From Acutalibacter sp. 1XD8-33 (lineage in GTDB: Bacteria > Bacillota > Clostridia > Oscillospirales > Acutalibacteraceae): a stretch of 64,000 nt of DNA. Under the pieces are notes generated by a model. The model had not been told where the DNA came from, ran no database searches, and worked only from the letters and a program-made list of their open reading frames with translations. The translations under genes and the position numbers were made by a program. Location: assembly GCF_003612555.1 (NCBI RefSeq), contig NZ_RAZF01000008.1:1-64000 (forward strand). The letters run 5' to 3'. This document shows positions 26,866-31,265 of the stretch, piece after piece (position 1 is the stretch's first letter; every line of letters begins with the position of its first letter).

Positions 26866-27039
26866 ATGTCAAAGCATAAGTTCAGGTGTACGTGTATGAA
26901 AGACCGGGACTGTAGAAATATGTGTACTGTCTGCTTTGGACTAGGACTGACCGTCTCCTGCTTTTGCCCTATAGGCTTTGCCATGTTTCTCTCCGCAGTA
27001 ATCTTGGTGGCCTTGGGCGTCTCGTTATTACGGAATTGA
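26866..27039 (+). CDS. small Cys-rich membrane protein, unknown function
   Basis: A 57-residue protein with seven cysteines, of which five lie in a basic N-terminal half (CTCMKDRDCRNMCTVC), followed by a hydrophobic helix (about 28-53) and a short basic end. GGGGAGG lies 10 bases before ATG 26866. I do not recognise a named family. It lies just upstream of the SpoVM-like gene and downstream of thiN, so a sporulation role is possible from position only. The cysteines could bind metal or form disulfides. Confidence 0.55.
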   Translation: MSKHKFRCTCMKDRDCRNMCTVCFGLGLTVSCFCPIGFAMFLSAVILVALGVSLLRN

Positions 27040-27054
27040 AGCGGGGGTTTTAAC

Positions 27055-27144
27055 ATGAAAGTAATCATTCTGGAAAAGCGCAAAGGTTTTTGGGGATTCT
27101 TCCTGCGGAAGTTCTATGGAATACGAAAAACGGAAGAGGCGTAA
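27055..27144 (+). CDS. spoVM: SpoVM-like spore coat anchoring peptide
   Basis: A 29-residue peptide starting MKVIILEKRKGFWGFFLRK and ending in GIRKTEEA. The plan matches SpoVM: a short beta-like start, an amphipathic helix with a run of hydrophobic and basic residues (F-x-x-F-L-R-K-F-x-G-I-R-K) and a charged tail. Bacillus SpoVM has 26 residues; clostridial forms commonly end in a similar 'FGIKK' element. SpoVM recognises the curved forespore membrane and recruits SpoIVA. The position after thiN is conserved in B. subtilis. GGGGG lies 7 bases upstream. It is too short for usual gene calls. A strong terminator follows. Confidence 0.8.
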   Translation: MKVIILEKRKGFWGFFLRKFYGIRKTEEA

Positions 27145-27161
27145 AGCCTAAATACTTACGA

Positions 27162-27203
27162 AAGCTGTTCGGTGAGAAAAGTTTCGCCGAACAGCTTTTC
27201 CTT
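27162..27203 (+). terminator. Rho-independent terminator after spoVM
   Basis: AAGCTGTTCGGTGA pairs with TCGCCGAACAGCTT (one G-U) around an 8-base loop, followed by TTCCTTT. It separates the thiN-spoVM side from the sipL operon. Confidence 0.9.
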
Positions 27204-27214
27204 TGGGGAAGCCC

Positions 27215-27242
27215 GCATATTTCTCTTATGGCTGCATACATA
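27215..27242 (+). promoter_or_regulatory. SigE-type (mother-cell sporulation) promoter for sipL-spoIVA
   Basis: GCATATT, 13 bases, CATACATA: all seven positions match the SigE -35 consensus (KHATAHT) and seven of eight match CATACAHT. It lies between a terminator and sipL, 32 bases before the start codon. SipL and SpoIVA are made in the mother cell in other species, which agrees. Confidence 0.8.
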
Positions 27243-27274
27243 TTAGGTAAGAAAGACAAAGGAGAGGATGCTGT

Positions 27275-28810
27275 ATGCAGGCCCAAATTAAGACCGCGCC
27301 TTACGAATACTTTGACCCCATATTTGACGGCCGTTATGAAGCGCCGGTTGACGCTGAATACAATTTACCGGATTACTGTGCGGATATCCAAAAAATACTA
27401 AAATGCAGAATGGTCCCGGAGATATCATCGTATATTATTTCTGGGGACACTCTAACCTGCGATGGTGTGTGTGACATTCGGGTTCTTTATCTAGACGGCA
27501 AGGGAGATACTGTTCGCTGTTGTGATTTCACAAAAGACTTCACCGCCAGCATCAAGCTGAAGAGCTCTGAGGAAAAAGCTGTCGCCTGCGTGCAGGCCTC
27601 TATCGCGCATTTGACTTGCCGGGCAGTTAGCGCCAGGAGGGTGGATTTACATGCCGCTATCTGCCTGCAGGTGTTAGCTGTGGTGCAGAAAAAAGAGCTG
27701 ATCACATGTAGCCTGGAGGATGAAACCATTGAAAAACGAGGAGAGAGTTTTCAGGCCCATCAAGCTGTAAACGCGGTCTGCCATCAGTTTACCATTGAGG
27801 ACACATTACCTGTCAAAAACGGAAAACCTCCTATTGAAACGATCCTCCGCCGGGATGTTTCCTGCCGGGTCATAGAAAGCAGGATTAGTGAAGAGCGTTT
27901 GACAGTAAACGGTACGGCGGACATTTCTTTCTTGTACACATCTGCTGTCGATAGCAATACTGTGGAAAAGCTGTCGTCTTCCATTGATTTCAGCCAAGTA
28001 ATCGAATGTGCCGGAGCGGAGGAAAGCTGTGTTTGCGACCTGCGTATCGTAACGGGAGAAAGCAGCATACAGCCAAGAGAGGACGACGTGGGAGAATATA
28101 ACAGCGTTAGCGTTGTCATAAAAGTATTCCTTATGGCATTCCTCTATAAATCATGTGAGGTCGAAATTATCGATGACGCCTACTCTGTGAAAGCGCCTTT
28201 GGAACTGCGGTATTCTCAGAGCGTTTTTACACAAATTCATGGAATAACCTCTGAGACACTGAAAAAGAAATGCAGCTTGACAGTTTCTGATGATGAGATT
28301 CAAAAGGTGCTGGATATTTGGTGCGAACAGGATTTGGTCCAGACCATTTGTGAAAAGGCGAAGCTGAACTATCGGGTGAAATATACAGTTTGCATGCTTT
28401 ATATGAATGCACAAGGCAGGATTCTCTATATAGAAAAGCAGTTCGACCACAATTTTACCACAGAGATGGAGAATCCCTTAATTAAGAGGGCTGATACCAC
28501 CTGGCATACTGACATGTGGGAGTACCGGATTGCAGACAGAAACACCGTCGAGGTTTCTGTGGAAACATCCGTAGTTTCTACGCTCTTAAGCCTGAATACT
28601 GTTAAATATCTGACCTCTGCGGCAACAGATGAAAACACAAAGGACTTTGACCTACGGCCTAGGTTCTTAGTATATTACGCTTCACAGGGCGAAAAGCTAT
28701 GGGATATTGCCAAGGGTCATCGGGCGATGCTCTCGGATATTCGGAATCAGAACGAGCTTTTTGACGATATTGTGCCTGAGCCCCGGCCTATTATCATTTG
28801 CAACCGATAA
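27275..28810 (+). CDS. sipL: SipL-like spore coat morphogenetic protein (DUF3794/SPOCS and LysM)
   Basis: A 511-residue protein with repeated SPOCS (DUF3794) segments; each has a 'D..C.V.G..' strand pattern, e.g. LPDYCADIQKIL and GTADISFLY. A C-terminal LysM-like domain occupies the last 50 residues (YYASQGEKLWDIAKGH to PEPRPIII). SipL of Clostridioides difficile binds SpoIVA through its LysM domain and is needed to localise the coat around the forespore. Here spoIVA is the next gene, 33 bases downstream, which strongly supports that job. ATG 27275 follows AAAGGAGAGG. Confidence 0.9.
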   Translation: MQAQIKTAPYEYFDPIFDGRYEAPVDAEYNLPDYCADIQKILKCRMVPEISSYIISGDTLTCDGVCDIRVLYLDGKGDTVRCCDFTKDFTASIKLKSSEEKAVACVQASIAHLTCRAVSARRVDLHAAICLQVLAVVQKKELITCSLEDETIEKRGESFQAHQAVNAVCHQFTIEDTLPVKNGKPPIETILRRDVSCRVIESRISEERLTVNGTADISFLYTSAVDSNTVEKLSSSIDFSQVIECAGAEESCVCDLRIVTGESSIQPREDDVGEYNSVSVVIKVFLMAFLYKSCEVEIIDDAYSVKAPLELRYSQSVFTQIHGITSETLKKKCSLTVSDDEIQKVLDIWCEQDLVQTICEKAKLNYRVKYTVCMLYMNAQGRILYIEKQFDHNFTTEMENPLIKRADTTWHTDMWEYRIADRNTVEVSVETSVVSTLLSLNTVKYLTSAATDENTKDFDLRPRFLVYYASQGEKLWDIAKGHRAMLSDIRNQNELFDDIVPEPRPIIICNR

Positions 28811-28843
28811 AATATAGGGAACAGCCCAGAAAGGAACGAGAGC

Positions 28844-30319
28844 ATGGAGAACTTTAACGTATATAAAGATATACAAGACCGTACCAACGGGGAAATATAT
28901 ATAGGAGTGGTGGGGCCTGTACGCACCGGAAAATCTACGTTTATCAAGAAGTTTATGGACACTGTGGTGATTCCCAATATTCCAGACGGGCTTCAGCGAG
29001 AACGGGCGGTTGATGAACTACCGCAATCTTCAGCAGGGCGTACCATTATGACAACCGAGCCCAAATTTATCCCAGAGCAGGCTGTTTCGGTGCAGATTGA
29101 TAACGAAGCCATGTTTAGTGTGCGGATGATCGATTGTGTGGGATATATTGTGCCCAGCGCCATAGGCTACATAGAAGAGGATCAGCCCCGCATGGTACGC
29201 ACCCCTTGGTTTGATGAGCCCATCCCTTTTAATATGGCTGCGGAAATCGGCACAAAAAAGGTGATTACAGAGCACTCTACGATTGGGTTGGTCATTACCA
29301 CTGATGGCAGCATCAGCGACATTCCCCGGGAAGAGTATGAAGAGGCGGAAGAAAGGGTTATTGATGAGTTGAACCAAACCAACCGTCCTTTTGTCATTCT
29401 ACTGAACTGCGTGGACCCAGGGAATCCGGAATCCAGAGCTCTAGGAGCAAGGCTGTCCGAAAAGTACGGGGTGCCTGTATTGCCAGTAAACTGCATCGAT
29501 ATTACAGAACAGGGCATCAAAGACATCATTGCAAGCCTTCTATATCAATTCCCTGTACGGGAGGTTGCGCTGAATGTGCCAGGCTGGGTAGCCTCTCTGG
29601 GAGCGGATCATTGGCTATATTCTTCTGTATTCGGCATAATCAAGGATTCCTGCGGAATTACTCGTATGCGGGAAGTAAAGTCTATGCTGGAAAGTGTGCG
29701 TGCCTGTGATTCCATTCAAAGTCTCAATGTACGAAAAATTGATCTGGGCAGTGGCTGCGCCCATGTGGACCTGATATTCGATCAGTCTCTGTTCTACAAA
29801 ATCCTCAGTGAAAAGACCGAACTGGATATCAGGGACGAATCAGAGCTTCTGGCTCAACTGATTGAGATGACGCAAATCAAAAAGACCTTCCAAAAACTGA
29901 GCCAGGCATACGACGATGTCCTGGAGTCCGGCTATGGAATTGTTATGCCCGATGTGGAGGAGCTCACCCTGGAAGAGCCCCAAATTTTGAAACAGAATGG
30001 CAAATACGGCATCCGCCTGAAAGCCACGGCGCCATCCATCCATATGCTGAGAACTCAAATTAATACGGAAATTACGCCTATCGTTGGGTCAGAACAGCAG
30101 TCAGAGGAATTGGTATTATACCTATTAAAAGAATTTGAGGAGAATCCTGTAAAGATATGGGAGTCCAATATATTTGGAAAATCCCTGCATTCGCTGGTCA
30201 ATGAAGGAATGCACAATAAGCTATACCGAATGCCCAATGATGCCCGGGAAAAGGTACGCGAAACAATCGAACGCATTATCAACGACGGCTGCAGCGGCCT
30301 GATCTGTATCATACTATAA
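28844..30319 (+). CDS. spoIVA: stage IV sporulation protein A (spore coat ATPase)
   Basis: A 491-residue ATPase that polymerises irreversibly on the forespore surface to form the base of the coat. Walker A is GPVRTGKST at 24-32 (K30), within GVVGPVRTGKSTFIKKFMD, and the Walker B-like MIDCVGY lies near residue 90. The length and the end GLICIIL match B. subtilis SpoIVA (492 residues). AAAGGA precedes the start. It ends in a TAATG overlap with a small membrane protein gene, suggesting coupled translation. Confidence 0.97.
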   Translation: MENFNVYKDIQDRTNGEIYIGVVGPVRTGKSTFIKKFMDTVVIPNIPDGLQRERAVDELPQSSAGRTIMTTEPKFIPEQAVSVQIDNEAMFSVRMIDCVGYIVPSAIGYIEEDQPRMVRTPWFDEPIPFNMAAEIGTKKVITEHSTIGLVITTDGSISDIPREEYEEAEERVIDELNQTNRPFVILLNCVDPGNPESRALGARLSEKYGVPVLPVNCIDITEQGIKDIIASLLYQFPVREVALNVPGWVASLGADHWLYSSVFGIIKDSCGITRMREVKSMLESVRACDSIQSLNVRKIDLGSGCAHVDLIFDQSLFYKILSEKTELDIRDESELLAQLIEMTQIKKTFQKLSQAYDDVLESGYGIVMPDVEELTLEEPQILKQNGKYGIRLKATAPSIHMLRTQINTEITPIVGSEQQSEELVLYLLKEFEENPVKIWESNIFGKSLHSLVNEGMHNKLYRMPNDAREKVRETIERIINDGCSGLICIIL

Positions 30320-30663
30320 TGCAGGATCCAGAGAAGCTGCGGGAAATTGACAGCCTGGGCGAAGAGTTCGATGATTCTTTCCAGGAAGAGGATTGGGAAG
30401 GGCCTGAGGAAAAGTCCCATTGGGGAGGAGCGCTTTTGCTGCAATCGGTAATCTGCGCCCTTGCTATGCTGGCGCTGGTATTTTTTCGGATAACAGACGA
30501 TGAAAGATATCAGGAAATTGCGCAGTGGTATGGGCGGGAGATGTCCCAGGAAATTGAACTGCCTCAATTACAGCGAACAGTCTCAGAGCCGGATCCTACT
30601 CCGGAACCATCGCCTAGTGCTTCTCCGCTAGATTTAGACGGCGCTTCCCAACAATTACTATAA
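30319..30663 (+). CDS. single-helix membrane protein of unknown function
   Basis: A 114-residue protein: an acidic N-terminal part (about 1-40, rich in E and D), one membrane helix (about 42-57, ALLLQSVICALAMLALVFF), then a segment with a conserved-looking YQEIAQWYGREM and a Pro/Ser tail. Its start overlaps the spoIVA stop and its stop overlaps the start of the M50 protease (both TAATG). In B. subtilis the SpoIVFB protease is held by SpoIVFA. This protein has no LytM domain, but its location and topology make it a candidate partner or substrate of the protease. Function is not established. Confidence 0.6.
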   Translation: MQDPEKLREIDSLGEEFDDSFQEEDWEGPEEKSHWGGALLLQSVICALAMLALVFFRITDDERYQEIAQWYGREMSQEIELPQLQRTVSEPDPTPEPSPSASPLDLDGASQQLL

Positions 30664-31265
30664 TGATCAGATTTGCGATTGGACCATGCCCCATAGAAAT
30701 TCATTTTTCCTGTTTCGCGCTGTTTGCTTTTTGCTGTATTTTTACGGGAATGGGCGGCAGCGCGATTTGTTTTGTGTCAGTACTTCTCCATGAGTCCGCC
30801 CATCTGGGAGCAATGTTGAGCTTGCATATGGCGCCAGCCAGGATTATCTTGTCAGCGTTAGGATGCCGGGTGGTCCTGAATAGAGGATGTCATCTATCTG
30901 ATTGGAAACAAGCGATCATTTCGTTGTCCGGGCCTGCCGCAAATTGGCTGGTATTTTTATCCACTTTGATTTTGGGGTTCGCTGACAGTCCTTTGGCAAT
31001 GGTAAATTTGGCCCTTGGCCTAACACATATCCTACCCATAGAACCGTTAGATGGGGGATTCGCATTGAGATACATCCTTCGCAGCCAGTTCGGCGAAGAA
31101 AAAGCAGACAGCGTTAGTAAAGGGATTTCCGTGCTTTTTTTGCTTCCATTGGCTCTATTGGGATTTTATATTCTCCTTCGTACCCAATATAATTACTCTC
31201 TTTTGGCTCTTAGCATCTATCTCATGCTATATTTGGTGTTGGGAAAGGATGAGGCAGCTCCTTAG
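30663..31265 (+). CDS. spoIVFB: M50 site-2 protease, SpoIVFB-like
   Basis: A 200-residue intramembrane metalloprotease with five or six hydrophobic segments. The zinc site is H43-E44-S-A-H47 (LLHESAH), and the third ligand is D130 in LPIEPLDGG. SpoIVFB of B. subtilis (288 residues) cleaves pro-SigK and carries a CBS domain at its C terminus; that domain is missing here, so regulation must differ or the substrate may be another protein. It is translated with the small membrane protein before it and sits in the spoIVA operon, so a sporulation role is probable but the substrate is unknown. Confidence 0.75.
   Translation: MIRFAIGPCPIEIHFSCFALFAFCCIFTGMGGSAICFVSVLLHESAHLGAMLSLHMAPARIILSALGCRVVLNRGCHLSDWKQAIISLSGPAANWLVFLSTLILGFADSPLAMVNLALGLTHILPIEPLDGGFALRYILRSQFGEEKADSVSKGISVLFLLPLALLGFYILLRTQYNYSLLALSIYLMLYLVLGKDEAAP

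Follow-up and report, generated by a model that had tools for sequence, protein, structure and literature searches.

The stretch of DNA analyzed here (the window) comprises 64,000 nucleotides, positions 1 to 64,000 of contig NZ_RAZF01000008.1 from Acutalibacter sp. 1XD8-33 (GCF_003612555.1, family Acutalibacteraceae), read on the forward strand. Four of its genes lie head to tail at positions 27275 to 31265: sipL, spoIVA, a gene for a one-helix membrane protein of 114 amino acids (aa), and a gene for an M50 intramembrane protease (Table 1). TAATG overlaps join spoIVA to the one-helix gene and the one-helix gene to the M50 gene. An earlier note, made from the sequence alone, had described a cluster of a SpoVM-like peptide, a terminator, a SigE-type promoter, SipL, SpoIVA, a one-helix protein, and an M50 protease, the last three genes overlapping in this manner; open reading frames (ORFs) and family matches confirm the cluster as well as both overlaps. 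We propose that the last two genes encode a trimmed SpoIVFA/SpoIVFB-type pair, which likely works like SpoIVFA-SpoIVFB and most likely controls pro-sigma-K processing rather than coat assembly, and we put the probability of this reading at roughly 0.7.

Table 1. Features of the sipL-spoIVA region and its upstream neighbors (window positions)
Feature	Position	Strand	Remarks
Cys-rich one-helix membrane peptide, 56 aa	26869..27039	+	No family match; neighbor of the unit
SpoVM-like peptide, 29 aa	27055..27144	+	17.4 bits, NCBIfam cut-off 31; neighbor, outside the unit
Hairpin terminator between spoVM and sipL	27161..27198	+	17-pair stem, -28.2 kcal/mol, z -6.5
SigE-type promoter GCATATT-N13-CATACATA	27215..27242	+	14/15 consensus positions; 32 bp before sipL
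sipL, 511 aa, SPOCS domains	27275..28810	+	PF12673, two stretches, E 2.9e-30
spoIVA, 491 aa, full-length equivalog	28844..30319	+	TIGR02836 696.7 bits, cut-off 459.9
Mini-SpoIVFA-like one-helix protein, 114 aa, without M23 domain	30319..30663	+	23.0 bits, E 4.7e-5 with the N-terminal profile of M23-bearing partners
SpoIVFB-type M50 intramembrane protease, 200 aa, HESAH and LDGG	30663..31265	+	PF02163 34.8 bits, cut-off 27.2

Gene order across relatives

The gene order was compared in a genus set of 27 loci, consisting of the window and 26 other Acutalibacter or Neglectibacter genomes with an M50 match; the closest named relatives by SpoIVA include Acutalibacter sp. 1XD8-36 (92%) and Neglectibacter timonensis (84%). 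All 27 loci carry the M50 gene within 1.5 kb downstream of spoIVA, and 26 have sipL directly upstream of spoIVA, the exception being L070, which is cut at a contig end. The flanks are less constant. Upstream, thiN was found within 6 kb in 21 loci; two of the remaining six are cut short, and four (L064, L075, L076, and L078) are real differences. L064, L075, and L076, with about 7 kb of upstream sequence, have neither spoVM nor thiN and keep sipL, spoIVA, the small gene, and the M50 gene, while L078 lacks thiN and keeps spoVM. Downstream, the radical SAM match is missing in eleven loci, two of which end at a contig edge and nine of which (L075-L081, L083, and L088) had 2 to 4 kb to show it. Since both flanks vary, the constant part is sipL-spoIVA-small gene-M50. 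This order is genus-wide in Acutalibacter and Neglectibacter, which are gut bacteria, and not private to this genome, which answers the comparison of related genomes proposed in the earlier note.

Among 80 named loci, sipL lies directly upstream of spoIVA in 72, and the M50 gene follows within 1.5 kb in 36 (72 had room for it). Forty loci from other families of the order, drawn from 119 SpoIVA matches, showed a detectable sipL upstream in 16 cases and an M50 gene downstream in two (L118 and L119); L150, reached through its M50 gene, adds a third other family in which the pair follows spoIVA. From these counts, sipL-spoIVA adjacency is common in the nearer relatives, and the M50 pair is less often attached to it. 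In L118, L119, and L150 (families f12, f13, and f18), an M23-bearing partner and the M50 gene stand directly after spoIVA, an arrangement that is either old or was joined more than once. The L119 run reads prkC, rsgA, thiN, spoIVA, a full M23 gene, the M50 gene, a radical SAM gene, a DUF2344 gene, and rplS.

Promoter and terminator

None of 500 shuffles gave a SigE-type site as good as the one before sipL, scored against a SigE consensus of 15 positions. Of the 22 genus loci that allowed anchoring, 18 keep at least 13 of these positions and L074, L075, L082, and L085 keep 11 to 12; L069, L070, L072, L077, and L087 were not anchorable. The best SigE-type sites before the one-helix gene (8/15) and the M50 gene (10/15) were no better than those in shuffled sequence, and a separate SigE-type promoter for these two genes was rejected, none being found. 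The earlier note had held that an own promoter for the last two genes, together with no sporulation expression, would speak against a common unit; no SigE-type site beyond shuffle level was detected there. The site before spoIVA reaches 12/15 (p 0.028), so a second start at this gene is possible.

None of 200 shuffles matched the hairpin between spoVM and sipL. A mechanical scan for promoters and terminators did not list this hairpin, probably because its T run lies inside the stem, and returned promoter and terminator numbers no higher than those from shuffles (9 versus 8.0 and 3 versus 4.6, respectively). SpoVM was rejected as an essential component, since the strong terminator intervenes and the unit persists in L064, L075, and L076, where no spoVM match is seen. 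Of the compact unit envisaged in the earlier note, the conserved run of coat-basement and membrane-protease genes stands, and SpoVM drops out.

The M50 protease

The M50 protein has the metal motifs of a site-2 protease core, with H43, E44, H47, D130, G131, and G132 invariant in all 50 aligned family sequences. Its AlphaFold2 model has a pLDDT (predicted local distance difference test) of 93.5, and a Foldseek search with this model returned four PDB chains at E<0.001, evenly divided between MjS2P and SpoIVFB. A profile of the 50 family members against the PDB placed Bacillus subtilis SpoIVFB first (E 7.7e-21) and MjS2P next (4e-15). Two other M50 genes are present in the genome, a 373-aa frame on contig C72 and a 258-aa frame on contig C39, the latter of which we take to adjoin scpA/scpB. 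The profile of the present family scores 78.7 bits to SpoIVFB versus 18.2 bits for that of the scpAB-linked family, which was built from the 9 of 30 loci that passed a strict motif; five equal-sized samples of the present family gave 58.5 to 78.2 bits. Throughout the 115 scored M50 loci, the chain ends just behind the last helix, with 108 to 186 aa after HExxH. These profile comparisons suggest that the M50 protein is a SpoIVFB-type protease, closer to SpoIVFB than to other M50 families.

The one-helix partner

The 114-aa protein consists of a short tail, a transmembrane (TM) and a juxtamembrane helix, and a disordered Pro/Ser-rich tail; its model (mean pLDDT 74) places the TM helix at residues 36-59 and the juxtamembrane helix at residues 61-75, with low-confidence tails. 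It has no Pfam match and no M23/LytM domain. The counterpart gene in relatives, placed immediately before this M50 gene and often overlapping it in a similar way, encodes a one-helix protein that bears an M23 domain. With M50 starts anchored on HExxH, and with the better-scoring TM candidate taken as the partner in L080 and L222, a partner gene stands upstream of the M50 gene in 113 of the 115 scored loci, L144 and L245 having no candidate under the rules used. The M23 domain is carried by 20 of 85 non-redundant partners and missing from 65. M23-bearing partners occur, for example, in Clostridium sporosphaeroides, Clostridium minihomine, and Faecalispora, and the three tested match Pfam M23 at E 1.6e-28 to 1.9e-27.

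Both forms of the partner share their membrane core. At E<1e-3, a profile built from the TM and juxtamembrane parts of 19 M23-bearing partners recovered 84 of 92 M23-less partners; none of the non-partner ORFs in the set of 19,060 passed this threshold (best other E 0.0011). The reverse profile, from 65 M23-less partners, recovered 12 of 21 M23-bearing ones at E<1e-3 and 18 at E<10; its one extra ORF, L245_13, is a short-start gene upstream of the L245 M50 gene. The totals of 92 and 21 hold some genomes twice, as named and unnamed copies. A Q-x3-C motif is present in 52 of 65 M23-less and 12 of 20 M23-bearing sequences, and Q42, C46, and Y71 are kept in at least 90% of 46 partner sequences. 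The partner tail is poorly conserved, with a mean column identity of 16%. NCBIfam gave no SpoIVFA label, even for three M23-bearing partners. We think that the 114-aa protein is best read as a SpoIVFA cut down to its membrane core; with the M23 domain missing, it is called SpoIVFA-like and not SpoIVFA.

On the M50 tree, the M23 state requires 9 parsimony changes, only 2 of which are forced by starred branches, and long branches meet; M23 gain and M23 loss are indistinguishable on this tree. The M23-bearing partners of L230, L240, and L241 (Clostridium minihomine, C. sporosphaeroides, and Faecalispora) nest within an otherwise M23-less group, and the domain may have been regained there or lost many times. 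Elsewhere in the genome of the window, there are five M23 matches.

sigK, BofA, and SpoIVB

The other parts of a sigma-K switch were found in the same genome. Its sigK gene is split between positions 179927-180262 and 189790-190140 of contig C50 (locus L197), and a large serine recombinase with Resolvase, Recombinase, and zinc-ribbon domains adjoins the second half. The sigK product has a hydrophobic N-terminus followed by NSFPKALS, and the split sigK of a second genome, G022, likewise encodes a hydrophobic N-terminus with an FP-type site. Among relatives, sigK was readable in 27 of 30 loci, 14 of the 27 belonging to the genus; a hydrophobic stretch (best 15-residue mean 1.19-2.41) is present in all 27 and an FP-type site in 26. 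The skin-like element in sigK measures about 9.5 kb in the genome of the window (G000) and about 13 kb in G022 (locus L198), and split sigK matches were also seen in the genus genomes G009, G010, and G018.

Co-occurrence was scored in 60 relatives, 29 of them genus genomes. Within the genus, BofA was matched in 29/29, SpoIVB in 28/29 (in some cases in pieces), and the M50 protease in 27/29, the two genomes lacking the latter being 60-63% complete. One family member with a 1.3-Mb genome (G033) had no M50, BofA, or SpoIVB match and only a weak sigma match. The BofA of the window's genome (G000:C14:5888-6061, locus L203:1540-1716) has 58 aa from its ATG and carries the GVPG turn; it matches PF07441 from profile position 21, the genome-level match starting at position 7. 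In 27 of 29 genus genomes, the match begins no earlier than position 15, versus positions 1-5 in 15 of 18 other matched genomes, and in G006 it runs over stops. PF07441 stayed silent in the B. subtilis control genome, so this search misses true BofA. The first TM segment of the genus BofA may be absent.

Neighboring genes

Upstream of the Cys-rich peptide lie thiN and two genes that we take to be rsgA and prkC; downstream of the M50 gene follow a TIGR03960 radical SAM gene, a DUF2344 gene, and presumably rplS. The Cys-rich peptide was absent from the earlier note, although the start of the cluster given there (26866) falls at this gene and not at spoVM. Of the 26 other genus loci, 22 have it, as do four family loci (L092, L093, L095, and L096) without a visible spoVM match. 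The SpoVM-like peptide, below its family cut-off by score, is likewise conserved in 22 of the 26 other genus loci.

A probable pared-down pair for pro-sigma-K processing

The reading of the pair as a pro-sigma-K processing module is based on SpoIVFB as the best PDB profile match, on the position and likeness of the M23-type partner, and on the presence of sigK, BofA, and SpoIVB in the genome. The genes and their order, the homology of the partner to M23-bearing partners, the domain losses, and the presence of the other parts are observations. On this reading, a single SigE-type promoter would drive transcription of sipL, spoIVA, mini-spoIVFA, and spoIVFB in the mother cell; by following sipL-spoIVA, the pair would be co-expressed with these genes, and its translation might be coupled to theirs. 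In the outer forespore membrane, the helices of the partner would lie against the protease together with BofA and hold it inactive; after engulfment, forespore SpoIVB would clip the tail of the partner in the intermembrane space. A further speculation, which we consider rather unlikely, concerns the lost LytM anchor: the complex might be kept at the forespore by the coat basement, whose SipL and SpoIVA come from the shared transcript, such that coat-base assembly, and not the engulfment zipper, would place or time sigma-K release. Part of this speculation is a pared-down sigma-K checkpoint composed of SpoIVFA without LytM, SpoIVFB without linker and CBS domain, and BofA apparently without its first helix.

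Several points weigh against pro-sigma-K control by this pair. The interdomain linker and the CBS domain are absent from the M50 protein across the 115 scored loci, for which reason we call it SpoIVFB-type, and strict SpoIVFA/SpoIVFB membership fails on two defining domains, LytM in the partner and linker plus CBS in the protease. According to the available part of PMC11486902, pro-sigma-K processing stops when B. subtilis SpoIVFB lacks CBS domain and linker, so docking in this group must, on that account, differ. Foldseek ranks MjS2P first, MjS2P also outscores SpoIVFB in a single-sequence search with this M50 protein, the scpAB-linked M50 protein matches SpoIVFB about equally well in such a search, and the tree could not place SpoIVFB with its long branch. 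The SpoIVFA-like label is drawn from comparison with clostridial partners, and Galperin et al. (2012), in the portion of PMC3533761 at hand, describe the clostridial LytM proteins at this position as non-orthologous, with unrelated N-termini. Co-occurrence over all 60 relatives is loose (BofA 47, SpoIVB 56, M50 54), and the misses do not coincide: G032, G045, and G058 have the M50 protease without a BofA match, and G048 has sigK, BofA, and SpoIVB matches without an M50 match. Finally, a shared transcript, inhibition, clipping by SpoIVB, and pro-sigma-K as the substrate are steps that we infer.

Three other explanations deserve consideration. The protease might be of the SpoIVFB type and cleave pro-sigma-K while the small protein is a decaying remnant or a mere chaperone, leaving the protease unregulated or under BofA alone. 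In its favor stand a missing M23 domain, a tail at 16% identity, and an M23 state that changes repeatedly on the M50 tree, and a possible loss of regulation in some clostridia has been proposed, as far as the consulted text of PMC9042235 goes; yet the TM and juxtamembrane core, with Q42, C46, and Y71, is kept over wide divergence, a partner stands upstream of the M50 gene in 113/115 loci, and BofA is found in 29/29 genus genomes, which makes us regard this explanation as unlikely. The M50 protein might, alternatively, be a general site-2 protease for another membrane substrate, such as an anti-sigma factor or signal peptides, with pro-sigma-K being cut by another M50 protein. The genome does hold two further M50 genes, the scpAB-linked one equals the present protein in its single-sequence match to SpoIVFB, and the present one lacks linker and CBS domain. 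The profile scores (78.7 versus 18.2 bits), however, favor this family as the SpoIVFB counterpart, and the position behind an M23-type partner and a SigE-type promoter fits sporulation, so that we hold a general site-2 role to be highly improbable.

The third explanation, close to what the earlier note had suggested, gives the protease a part in sensing or shaping the coat basement: it would cleave SpoIVA, SipL, or some other coat factor, and the small protein would serve as its adaptor. Its basis is the kept co-location with sipL-spoIVA, the M50 gene following spoIVA in 27/27 genus loci and in L118, L119, and L150. In many relatives, however, the M50 gene and its partner lie away from spoIVA, as in Anaeromassilibacillus (L246 and L248, more than 4.6 kb downstream) and in most order-level M50 loci, and a pair found apart from spoIVA does not depend on the coat genes. 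The analysis yielded nothing in favor of a coat-directed role, no search aimed at it, such as one for membrane substrates among coat proteins, having been made. Of the explanations discussed here, a role in shaping the coat seems to us the least probable, and control of pro-sigma-K processing by the trimmed pair remains the reading that we prefer.

Comparison with known systems

The locus points to a specific candidate gene, encoding a partner that has or lacks LytM in relatives, for the control of clostridial SpoIVFB, and it offers a way to test how the sigma-K switch is held off outside Bacillus. The proteins are small (114, 200, and 58 aa) and suited to the existing E. coli cleavage assay. 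The locus further suggests a natural loss of linker and CBS domain from the protease and of LytM from the partner, with the membrane core retained, which would be informative on the gating of intramembrane proteases, and the placement of the pair in one run with sipL-spoIVA hints that expression could link the coat base to sigma-K release.

In B. subtilis, spoIVFA lies upstream of spoIVFB. Like B. subtilis SpoIVFB (PDB 8vjl/8vjm), the M50 protein has a site-2 core with HExxH and LDGG and is encoded directly downstream of a one-helix partner. Unlike SpoIVFB, which has about 245 aa after HExxH in a 288-aa chain, it is a 200-aa protein without linker and CBS domain, and its gene sits in a sipL-spoIVA unit. 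The partner shares with B. subtilis SpoIVFA a single TM helix, and its kept core matches the position of the part modeled in the inhibition complex, judging from the accessible text of PMC9042235, whereas the genus partner has no M23/LytM domain. That model comprises SpoIVFA residues 65-111, and the TM segment of SpoIVFA contacts BofA, according to what was available of PMC9042235 and PMC12632252. BofA of the window's genome resembles its B. subtilis counterpart in the PF07441 match with the GVPG turn and differs in its length of 58 aa and the apparent lack of the first TM segment, which plays a minor role in B. subtilis, as indicated by the available text of PMC9042235.

For clostridia, the parts of PMC9042235 and PMC12632252 at hand state that a recognizable spoIVFA is mostly lacking and that the control of clostridial SpoIVFB is an open question, and a survey cited in the accessible portion of PMC12632252 recognized spoIVFA in two spore-forming Clostridia. 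In their survey, Galperin et al. (2012) could identify no orthologue of spoIVFA among clostridia, as given in the consulted sections of PMC3533761. A full-text literature search, which covered titles and abstract openings and few subscription journals, yielded no description of an M23-less SpoIVFA or of a sipL-spoIVA-spoIVFAB run. As with the clostridial LytM proteins at the spoIVFA position (PMC3533761), the M23-bearing relatives of the partner described here are encoded upstream of the M50 gene, and they share its TM and juxtamembrane core; in contrast, the genus and several related lineages keep the core only, a form that the available sections of PMC3533761 do not describe.

SipL and SpoIVA are both present here, as in Clostridioides difficile. 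In that species, sipL and spoIVA lie apart in the genome, whereas in the group studied here sipL stands directly upstream of spoIVA (72/80 named loci).

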